DNA from: Linderina pennispora
Taxonomy: Eukaryota > Kickxellomycota > Kickxellomycetes > Kickxellales > Kickxellaceae
Assembly: GCF_002104995.1 (NCBI RefSeq)
Contig: NW_024468252.1
Span: forward strand, 248,001 to 312,000
Length of the DNA stretch: 64,000 bases
Reading direction: 5' to 3'
Shown: positions 8,118-62,476 of the stretch, piece after piece
How the letters are laid out: the number at the start of each line of letters is the position of its first letter
Position numbering within the stretch: position 1 is the first letter of the stretch
Notes under the pieces: model-generated
What the model was told of the DNA's origin: nothing
Databases searched by the model: none
What the model saw: only the letters and a program-made list of their open reading frames with translations
Program-made: the position numbers and the translations under genes

Positions 8118-9145
8118 ATGTCCAAGACCAACACCGACAGCAAATCGATGGTGATGCTGGGTGCTTCTGTTCAGTCTGTTGCAGAATTTGCATACAGTTT
8201 TCTCAGCAAGATCGACCCTTCTACACCCTCTGCCACTAGCCAAATTGATCACATCATCATGGACCATCGCAACGCGCACAAGGACGATGACGCCAGCGTG
8301 CAGAAAATTGCTATCGTGACTGGTGCTAACTCTGGGATCGGATTTGTAACCGCCAGCGCGCTTGCACGGGCTGGATATCATATCATCCTAGCGTGCCGAA
8401 ACCCGGATCTAGCGCAAGAGGCGCTTGACACGCTGAAGCGCCAGACTGGGCTCGAGACCTTTGAGATCATGCAGCTGGATTTGGCATCGCTGGAGTCAGT
8501 TAGCAATTTCGTCAAGCAATTCAAGGCCAAGTACGAGACGCTGGACATCCTGGTTAACAATGCCGGCGTGATGATGTGCCCGTACTCGCAGACCAAGGAC
8601 GGTATTGAGATGCAGTTTGGCACCAACCATATTGGCCACTTTGCGCTGACAACACAGCTGCTAGATAACCTGAAGGCAGCCAAGGGCGGTGCTCGCATCG
8701 TCGTCGTTGCATCACTGGTCGTATATCCTCACCACTGGCATTGGATTACAGCGCGATTGAAGAGGAAGCCAAGTACGACCGTAACAATAACTACGCGATG
8801 GCAAAGCTCGCCAACATCATGTTTTCGAACGCACTTGCGCGCAGGCTCGAGGGTACGAACGTCACTGTAAACTCACTGCATCCGGGATCGATCAAGACAA
8901 ACTTGACACGCCATGTGGGCACAGGTGCTGTCATGGACACCCTGACTAAGGCGCTATTTATCGATGCACAAGCTGGCGCACTGACCTCAATTTATTTGGC
9001 TCTATCACCAGAGGTTGAGGGTGTTTCTGGAAAGTACTTTGCGCGATGCGGAGAAGCCAACCCACACGCAAAGGCACTGGATGAAGCTGAGCAGGACAAG
9101 CTGTGGGAATACTCGGAGAAATTGGTTGCTGAAAAGTCAAAGTAG
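8118..9145 (+). CDS. short-chain dehydrogenase/reductase, retinol dehydrogenase-like, one frameshift
   Basis: Classical SDR of the retinol dehydrogenase/WW-oxidoreductase type, an NAD(P)H-dependent oxidoreductase; the substrate is unknown. ATG at 8118. The cofactor motif TGANSGIG follows an N-terminal extension of about 60 residues. Next come LDILVNNAG, the conserved GTNHIGHFALT, the strand ARIVVVASL with the candidate catalytic Ser, and YAMAKLANIMF with the YxxxK pair. Later motifs include NSLHPGSIKTNL. The frame changes once near 8720, between ARIVVVASL and LDYSAIEEEAKYD. The downstream half stays conserved to the stop, so a one-base error is likely. The N-terminal extension could be a targeting segment, but I see no clear signal peptide. 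Confidence 0.82.
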
Positions 9146-42291: not shown

Positions 42292-43326
42292 TCACTCGGG
42301 GATATGAATGGTGACGTTTCTTCCCATCTTGAACTGGCACTCGGGACAGATGTGGACCTTGCGCTTGAACATCTTGAGCTGCAGGGGCAGCGCAGCCAGC
42401 GGATACGCAGCAGCAGGTGCATTAACAGCGACCACGACTGCGGCGGCAGCTGCAGTTGCGACGATGCTTGTGGTGCCAATTTCGCGGGAAATACGTGTGC
42501 GCACCTGGCGCTTGCATTTTGGGCAGCGCACGTACGCCGGATTCGTGTTGACCTGGGCATAGGCACCCTGTGGCAGCGACCGCGCGCCGCGCGCGCCGCG
42601 ATTAAACACAGCGTTCGGGTCGTCGACAACGCTGACTGCCGACGGACACACCCTGTTGTCGATGTCGGTGCAGATTTGCGTGATCAGACCGACCAGGCCG
42701 TGGCGGTTGTTGGCAAAATTCCAGGCTGCCGGGATGAACGCAGTCGACTGCGAGTACCGGTTGTAGTTGCCATGGCGGTTGTCGCGGCGCTGGCTGGCGG
42801 GGGGCTGCGCGCCGGTATGCAGCTGCACGGCCATTTCATCATAGCTTGCTGCCTCACCGCGCACCCCGGGGCTGCTGTCGGCGTGACCCGCATTATCATG
42901 CCTACTGTGTCCATTGTGGTTCTGGTCCTCGCGCGATTGCCTGTCGCTTCGATGCTTGCGCCTGTGCTCAGTTCCCGAACTCCTACTGCGGTGGCGCTGC
43001 TCTTTGTCTGCATGGCTGCTCTGGTGGCTGCGAGACGACGAATGCTTTTCCTTGGATTGGCTGCTGCGATGCTGCTGGCTGTCGCTGTGACGGGGACTCG
43101 AGTGCTCATCTCTGCGTTGGCGGCTCGACTGACCCTCGTTGTGGCGGCGACTCGAGTGTCCCTCTCCATGGCGGCTACCTGAGCGATGCTTATGCTCAGA
43201 GCCCGCACTAGGGTATTGGGTGTCAGGAGTATACCCGTGGCTGAAAGTGTTGGCGGAGTACGCGTTTTCCCCGTAGCGGGCTTCAGGGGGATACTCGGTT
43301 TGGTATCTGTAGTTGGCAGTGGCCAT
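42292..43326 (-). CDS. LITAF-domain-like protein with basic low-complexity N-terminus
   Basis: Intact 344-residue frame from ATG 43324-43326. The first 60 residues are Tyr/Pro-rich. Residues about 40-145 are Ser/Arg/His-rich (HSSRRHNEGQSSRQRRDEHS and similar). A middle domain follows (FANNRHGLVGLITQICTDID, VVDDPNAVFNRG). The C-terminus has the LITAF layout: YVRCPKCKRQVRTRIS, a hydrophobic Ala/Val-rich stretch of about 35 residues (IVATAAAAAVVVAVNAP), then KVHICPECQFKMGRN. Two CxxC knuckles join into one zinc site on the cytosolic face while the hydrophobic part dips into the membrane. LITAF proteins sit on endosomes/lysosomes. The long basic extension is not part of typical LITAF proteins. 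Confidence 0.7.
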   Translation of the reverse strand: MATANYRYQTEYPPEARYGENAYSANTFSHGYTPDTQYPSAGSEHKHRSGSRHGEGHSSRRHNEGQSSRQRRDEHSSPRHSDSQQHRSSQSKEKHSSSRSHQSSHADKEQRHRSRSSGTEHRRKHRSDRQSREDQNHNGHSRHDNAGHADSSPGVRGEAASYDEMAVQLHTGAQPPASQRRDNRHGNYNRYSQSTAFIPAAWNFANNRHGLVGLITQICTDIDNRVCPSAVSVVDDPNAVFNRGARGARSLPQGAYAQVNTNPAYVRCPKCKRQVRTRISREIGTTSIVATAAAAAVVVAVNAPAAAYPLAALPLQLKMFKRKVHICPECQFKMGRNVTIHIPE

Positions 43327-60898: not shown

Positions 60899-62476
60899 TT
60901 ACGACGTCATGTAGGTCTTGGGGTCGATGTTGGCGGGCAGCTCGGTGACGTTGACCTCGAAGCGCTCCTGCACCGACTCGAGCACCGACTTGTCCTCCTC
61001 GGTCGAGACAAACGGTGATGGCGAGACCCTTGGTACCGAAACGGCCGGCACGGCCGACGCGGTGAAGGTACGCATCAGCCGAGTCCGAGATATCGTAGTT
61101 GATGACGATGTTGACGCGCTCGACATCGATACCACGGCCAAAGATGTCGGTGGCGACCATGATGCGCTTGGTGAAGTCCTTGAACTCCTTGTACTTGGCG
61201 ATGCGCTCCTCCTGCTGCATACCCGAGTGGAATGCAGATCGACGGGAAGTTGCAGCTGTTCAGCAGCTTGTTCAGCAGCTTGGCGCGCGACACCGACTTG
61301 ACAAAGATCACGACCTGGTTGAACTCGAGCGAGTCGAGCAGGTCGCTGAGCTTGCGGTTCTTGTCCTTCTCGGTCAGGGTGACGTAGTACTGCTGCAGAC
61401 CGTGCAGCGTCAGCTTGGCCTCGTCGTCGACAAAGATCTCGCGCGGGTCCTGCATGAACTTCTTGCACACGGGGCGGATCTCCTTGCTGAGCGTAGCGCT
61501 GAACATGAGCACCTGCTTGTTGTGAGGGGTCGCAAGGAAAATGTCCTGGACGTCGCGTCTCATATCTAGAAAGTTGGCAATACAATGGAGCAGTTAGTAA
61601 ATATGATGGGGTTGCAATGCAGCAAAGGACACAGGCATTCTGGGGCTGCTGTGCGGGTTAGTCAGATTAAATCCTTCACATGTAGTGATCCTGTGAGCTT
61701 ATATGCGGATCTTTTCGAAGAGCTGGGTTTAATAGCAATATCATCACTTAAACCGCCGACAGCAATGGGGACACATTGGGCAGAGCAACTTACCAAGCGA
61801 GTCAAGGACCTTGTCGCACTCGTCAATGACAAAGCTGTTGACCGAGCTCAGACGCAGCGACTTCTCGCGCACCAGCTGGAGGACACGGCCCGGAGTGCCG
61901 ACAACGATGTTCGGGCACTTCTCCTTGTCGCTCAGGATCTCCTGGTCCTTCTTGATGGCAACGCCACCGTAGAACACCTCAGTCTTGATGTCCGGCAGAT
62001 ACTTGCTGAACCGGACGTACTCGTTGCGGATCTGGAACGCAAGCTCACGCGTGTGGCACAGGACAATGGTTGACACGGCGCCCGGAACCGGCGTGATCTT
62101 GTTGAGCGTTGCCAGGACGAACACGGCGGTCTTGCCGAGACCGGACTTGGCCTGGCACAGAACATCGTTACCGTTGATGGCGGCAGGGATAGTCTCCTGC
62201 TGGACCTCCGACGGGTGCTCGAAGCCGCAGTCAACGATGGCACGCAGCAGCTCGGGCTTCATGAGGAAGTCGCGGAAGCTGGTCGAGTGCACACCAACAT
62301 AACTGCCCTTGTTGTCCTTGCCGTCAGCCTTGGGGGCAGCGGCGTCGTCAGCCTGGGCGGCGTCATCACCGCCCTCGGCGACCTCAGCATCGGCGGTCTC
62401 GGTGGTGGTGGTCGGCTGGAGAGCCTCCTCCTCCTCCTCGTCGTAGTCAATAAGATCCTCAGCGTGGATCGGCCAT
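60899..62476 (-). CDS. SUB2: DECD-box RNA helicase SUB2/UAP56, with three indels
   Basis: ATP-dependent helicase of spliceosome assembly and TREX mRNA export. Exon 1 is 61794-62476, exon 2 60899-61565; the 228-nt intron (61566-61793) hosts a snoRNA. Motifs in order: acidic N-terminus [13 protein letters not shown]-motif [17 protein letters not shown], Walker [30 protein letters not shown] box [51 protein letters not shown] and [16 protein letters not shown] 62474-62476 loses frame within six codons. The other two errors can be named: an extra base at about 61230 (CC for C before HSGMQQEER) and an extra base at 61013 before FVSTEED. About 440 residues. Essential gene, so these are taken as assembly errors. 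Confidence 0.95.
61653..61756 (-). ncRNA. intronic C/D box snoRNA in the SUB2 intron
   Basis: Read on the minus strand. Box C GUGAUGA lies at 61747-61741 and box D CUGA at 61665-61662, 75 nt apart. The flanks pair outward from the boxes as A-U, U-A, U-A, one mismatch, G-C, G-C, C-G, G-C, a proper C/D terminal stem. Just after box C, UAAACCCAGCUC (61731-61720) is a perfect 12-nt complement of GAGCUGGGUUUA, a universally conserved segment of the large-subunit rRNA before ...GACCGUCGUGAGACAGG. That would guide 2'-O-methylation in the region where yeast snR71 and snR73 act (numbering recalled, not checked). Boxes D' and C' are degenerate. Position inside a host intron matches how many C/D snoRNAs are made. 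Confidence 0.78.

Follow-up and report, generated by a model that had tools for sequence, protein, structure and literature searches.

The SUB2 gene and its intron

The window analysed here is a stretch of 64,000 nucleotides from Linderina pennispora, and the gene of the helicase SUB2/UAP56 was identified on its minus strand, close to the right end. The open-frame part of the exon upstream of the intron (61794..62292, minus strand) matched yeast SUB2 and human DDX39B/DDX39A chains in PDB at 1.5e-76, against 3.2e-32 for the first helicase of another kind, and the gene starts further upstream. The coding sequence downstream of the intron (60899..61565, minus strand) was read from the open reading frames and from a PDB match over 61240-61563, with the same chains at 3.1e-49 against 3.8e-14 for the first other kind of helicase. 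The frame of this downstream part is interrupted by two single-base shifts, at about 61014 and 61231 as placed by eye, and three open reading frames form its successive parts. A junction-peptide search of the genome gave 18 matches, of which the next best was only 35% identical; since no second SUB2 was found in this way, the two frame breaks are probably assembly errors.

The two parts are separated by a spliceosomal intron of 228 nt (61566..61793, minus strand), with GTAAGT at the donor, the branch site TACTAAC (61593..61599, minus strand) and CTTTCTAG at the acceptor. The exon ends joined across 61793-61566 gave a SUB2 reading without interruption, which agrees with the first-pass annotation, where a snoRNA had been placed inside a spliceosomal intron at this locus.

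Elements of the box C/D snoRNA

A box C/D snoRNA was identified in this intron at 61657..61752, its ends being placed, as an estimate, 5 nt beyond boxes C and D; all of its elements are on the minus strand. Box C, GTGATGA (61741..61747), and box D, CTGA (61662..61665), were recognized by motif reading, which fit RUGAUGA and CUGA and stand at snoRNA spacing. The exact boxes, spacing and strand reported in the first-pass annotation were thus all present, with the elements correctly ordered on the strand of the host gene. The antisense element TAAACCCAGCTC (61720..61731) is the complement of 25S GAGCUGGGUUUA and agrees letter for letter with the Rfam snR69 consensus at this place; with 12 nt complementary to rRNA next to D', it exceeds the 10 nt required of a box C/D guide. 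Box D', TCGA (61715..61718), has the same letters and register as the snR69 consensus. Neither a box C' nor a second guide could be recognized in the snoRNA.

The terminal stem is short, with a 5' arm GGTT (61751..61754) and a 3' arm AACC (61656..61659). It had been described as near-perfect, and the 4 bp of GGUU/AACC do exist, but 2-3 nt separate them from the boxes, so the description was generous. A possible alternative outer stem, UGCUGU/ACAGCA, was formed in the minimum-energy fold of the snoRNA stretch, between a 5' arm TGCTGT (61759..61764) and its partner ACAGCA (61652-61647). Folding of the snoRNA stretch was unremarkable (z -0.90; 43 of 200 shuffles fold as well), and for the whole intron z was +1.06, with 174 of 200 shuffles folding as well.

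The snoRNA lies on the SUB2 strand and clear of the splice signals; the donor precedes its estimated 5' end by 41 nt, and 68 nt separate box D from the branch A downstream. The usual distance from donor to snoRNA in Neurospora crassa is given as 41-60 nt in an excerpt of PMC2780460, and the roughly 41 nt found here, which depend on the estimated ends, fall at the limit of that range.

Assignment to the snR69 family

When 401 bases around the snoRNA were searched against 4,227 Rfam families at relaxed thresholds, the best family was snR69 (RF00475), which matched at 61751-61660 over the full model length with 25.9 bits and E 0.029 in 401 bases. The snoRNA and the snR69 consensus have in common an exact block of 17 nt, UAAACCCAGCUCUUCGA, comprising the guide and D' (UCGA), and in yeast numbering this guide and D' would be aimed at C2948. 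Afu_304 (E 1.8) and RF01153 (E 6.3) also matched there with much the same guide, and the RF01153 consensus has a perfect CUGA where the SUB2-intron RNA has TCGA, which supports the D' register. Judged by its guide and D' letters, the RNA is assigned to the snR69 family. A covariance search had been proposed as a check in the first-pass annotation; the score of 25.9 bits was well below the gathering score of 50, which is the curators' detection cut-off and not a property of the RNA.

No match to any Rfam family was found in the whole window at gathering scores, and with E up to 5 the snR69 match (E 4.6) was accompanied by one unrelated match. A sub-threshold match to the BiP IRES at 43022-43077 (plus strand) in the window, with 16.8 bits against 40 and E 0.72, is probably due to chance. 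In the genome of 26.17 Mb, the SUB2-intron locus was the best of the four snR69 matches listed (E 0.445), and the other three, with 22.6-23.3 bits, were 2.6-3.3 bits below it. These three were rejected as snR69, since they are near-identical copies of a single repeat that lacks the guide block. Among 14 prokaryote control genomes, 8 also gave matches to this family, all of them short of the cut-off. The claim is carried by the architecture of the element, not by the score alone.

Other snoRNA matches in this genome also missed their gathering scores, namely SNORD14 (U14) with 54.1 bits against 64, SNORD12 with 31.8 against 43, overlapping a snR107 match with 33.9 against 44, and SNORD49 with 30.5 against 37, so the shortfall of snR69 is not telling in this genome, although none of these missed its gathering score by as much as snR69 did. 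All of them are clustered in one locus of 3.1 kb on the minus strand (contig G000:C157, about 827390), and snoRNA clusters are described in Neurospora in an excerpt of PMC2780460. At the same locus, upstream of the SNORD12/snR107 match, GTAAGC comes immediately after TTTCTAG, like a zero-length exon.

At the loci of NOP56/NOP58-type and fibrillarin genes, the four loci searched out of seven retrieved (L066, L067, L070 and L071) gave no Rfam match up to E 2, a weak negative since the snR71 match described below itself has E 1.8. Genes with a Nop domain were found paired on different contigs (L067/L068 and L069/L070) with equal open-frame lengths of 514 and 504 aa, which suggests unmerged allelic contigs or duplications in the assembly.

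Predicted target nucleotide in 25S rRNA

Conservation of GAGCTGGGTTTA, the complement of the snoRNA guide, extends to bacteria. An E. coli segment of 41 bases that includes it was matched in 5,375 of 5,426 E. coli genomes; all three matches listed were annotated as 23S rRNA. The earlier claim of a perfect 12-nt complement to a conserved segment of the large rRNA was thus borne out, as TAAACCCAGCTC is complementary to a segment conserved to E. coli 23S.

The fifth nucleotide upstream of D' is the guide G at 61723 (minus strand), intron position 71, which would pair with the C of GAGC that we take to be yeast C2948. Because D' has the UCGA of the snR69 family, in the register of the Rfam consensus, and by the D'+5 rule, the target is predicted to be the equivalent of yeast 25S Cm2948 and not of Am2946 or Cm2959. 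The predicted target C would lie in 25S GAGCUGGG. The arrangement of snR71 (RF00479), with U opposite A2946, was not found in this RNA, where D'+5 is a G facing C2948. A guide to the Am2946/Cm2959 stretch of 25S had been proposed in the first-pass annotation; this was right, and it is now sharpened to the Cm2948 equivalent and the snR69 family. The target nucleotide had been called unclear on account of a degenerate D'. This D' is indeed not canonical, but it is the UCGA of snR69 itself, so that a nucleotide can be named as a prediction.

The yeast sites are assigned in a table of PMC5199042 as Am2946 to snR71, Cm2948 to snR69 and Cm2959 to snR73, and a table in PMC8817022 agrees on these assignments, including Cm2948 for snR69. 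An excerpt of PMC3511168 puts the snR69 site at Cm2945, not Cm2948.

Another short motif inside the snoRNA, AGCTCAC (7 nt; 61699-61693, minus strand; intron positions 95-101), was observed. Presumably 25S around A2946 is complementary to it as well, and no D'-like box was seen behind it by eye.

A companion snR71 candidate in SNU13

The genome was scanned for AGCTCAC, the guide of snR71/U29 type, downstream of a box C. At least 31 places were listed, and 7 of the 30 loci examined had a box D at the tested spacing, of which one (L055) also had a D'-like box behind the guide by eye. This snR71-like box C/D candidate is located in the first intron of SNU13 (contig G000:C168, about 326237-326261, minus strand), where D'+5 is U and would stand opposite A2946, the arrangement of snR71. 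Its best Rfam family was snR71 (RF00479), with 22.9 bits against 60 and E 1.8 on 3,025 bases. The host gene was identified by a PDB match to Snu13 (6.6e-63) and by the L7Ae family of Pfam; SNU13 is the gene of a box C/D core protein.

The SNU13 intron has 218 nt and directly follows the start codon. TGATGA, D' and TACTAAC begin at positions 49, 75 and 180 of this intron and at 48, 76 and 195 of the SUB2 intron. The two RNAs are alike in their Rfam clan (CL00051), in the letters of D' and in lying at near the same place of an intron of similar size, while they differ in host gene and in the guide, which is shifted in the SNU13 candidate so that U faces A2946. Apart from the boxes and splice signals, an alignment of the two introns was not convincing. 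Since a separate candidate for Am2946 is present in the SNU13 intron, the SUB2-intron RNA is probably a dedicated Cm2948 guide.

Alternative explanations

Chance resemblance in an ordinary intron was considered with 20,000 dinucleotide shuffles of the SUB2 intron and a box C to box D spacing of 45-110 nt. Boxes C and D at this spacing were found in 123 of 20,000 shuffled introns, and with a stem of at least 4 bp in 10 of 20,000. Pairs of the two boxes are not very rare, since the window has 14 of them at this spacing, two of which, in the SUB2 intron and at 8568, have a 4-bp stem. The pair at 8568 (plus strand) was rejected as a snoRNA, with 16.8 bits at best in Rfam and a stretch that looks protein-coding by eye (LDILVNNAGVMM). 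By contrast, the snR69 block of 17 nt in its proper register would be expected about 0.003 times in 52 Mb of sequence, both strands counted, on a simple count that assumes equal base frequencies and before boxes and intron are required, which leaves chance extremely improbable. Of the 12 genome sites of AAACCCAGCTC listed, the one in the SUB2 intron alone combines a box C at the spacing of a guide with a downstream TTCGA and a box D. It unites boxes, spacing, strand, intron, antisense element, D'+5 register and snR69 block, the sole complete set among the guide sites listed. A scan for box C, guide and D' in a collection of genome contigs gave eight places, all bacterial, against about one expected by simple counting, and none in viral contigs. 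Three near-identical bacterial places (L017, L018 and L024) have CTGA 16 nt behind D' and 52 nt from box C, within the spacing limit; at L022 it stands 97 nt behind D', too far, and four of the eight have no CTGA in 104 nt. Since the records come from bacteria, all eight were put down to chance.

A decayed copy of the snoRNA that has lost expression or function would fit the low family score and the lack of a recognizable C' box or second guide. Boxes C and D, the guide and D' are all intact, however, and no better copy was found among the matches listed in the genome, so that decay is very improbable. Somewhat less so, yet still improbable, is a double role in which one element of the RNA guides both Am2946 and Cm2948; N. 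crassa CD27 is predicted to do this and is given for both sites from D' in an excerpt of PMC2780460. The AGCTCAC that begins at intron position 95 would also be in its favour, since the stretch around A2946 is presumably complementary to it. But no D'-like box was seen behind this motif, the nucleotide of the RNA facing A2946 is two positions off the D'+5 place, and the SNU13 intron has another candidate, of snR71 type and with a D' of its own. Separate guides for the two sites are also given for Dictyostelium in a table of PMC8817022.

Known snR69 RNAs and host genes

Yeast snR69 is independently transcribed. The SUB2-intron RNA resembles yeast snR69 (RF00475) in box C, the 17-nt block, box D and the predicted target position, but has a shorter stretch before the guide, a score below gathering and a location in a SUB2 intron. 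The snR69 of Candida albicans lies in an intron according to an excerpt of PMC5033589. CD27 of N. crassa is likewise intronic, with a D' guide to the same 25S stretch, but is assigned both the snR69 and the snR71 site in the excerpt of PMC2780460.

SUB2/UAP56 had been noted as a host not known in fungi. No report of SUB2 as a host of snR69 or of any snoRNA in fungi was found in the literature searched, which covered few subscription journals; the one paper there that names both snR69 and SUB2 has the latter among its references only. But the human orthologue DDX39B is given as the host of SNORD84 in an excerpt of PMC5025248, so the remark stands for fungi only. SNORD84 is hosted by the same helicase gene, but it is a different snoRNA with its target listed there as unknown, and an independent association is the simplest reading. 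No joint report of Linderina pennispora and snoRNA was found in the literature searched. Intronic snR69 is already known, and only SUB2 as the host gene looks new for fungi.

Proposed pathway and possible feedback

The intron very probably encodes the Linderina snR69 orthologue, a splice-released C/D RNA of about 90-100 nt which would methylate the C2948 equivalent. Splicing, debranching, trimming and binding of Snu13, Nop56, Nop58 and fibrillarin are the general route of intronic C/D snoRNAs, and we infer release by splicing, protein binding and methylation for this RNA as well. The SUB2 pre-mRNA would be spliced, the intron debranched, and exonucleases would trim it to the RNA of about 90-100 nt, which could be bound by the box C/D proteins Snu13, Nop56, Nop58 and fibrillarin. 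The single clear guide upstream of D' would then pair with 25S GAGCUGGGUUUA, and fibrillarin would be led to 2'-O-methylate the C that corresponds to yeast C2948.

The predicted guides for C2948 and A2946 are found at near the same place in introns of SUB2 and SNU13, two RNA-machinery genes. If Snu13 bound the snoRNA in the pre-mRNA, this might tie splicing of SUB2 and SNU13 to snoRNP assembly and tune both to ribosome production, an idea by analogy that we regard as unlikely. In an excerpt of PMC10324135, SNORD86 ties NOP56 splicing to snoRNP assembly, and SNORD84, hosted by DDX39B, is named among the snoRNAs pairing with their host intron. If the idea were true, an mRNA-export helicase and a snoRNP core protein would be tuned to ribosome production, and the companion snR71 candidate in SNU13 makes this host-gene feedback testable.

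The four C/D places examined show that, in a fungus like this one, orthologues of C/D snoRNAs can fall below Rfam gathering scores. The finding would extend the snR69 guide of Cm2948 to Kickxellales, with SUB2 as its host gene.
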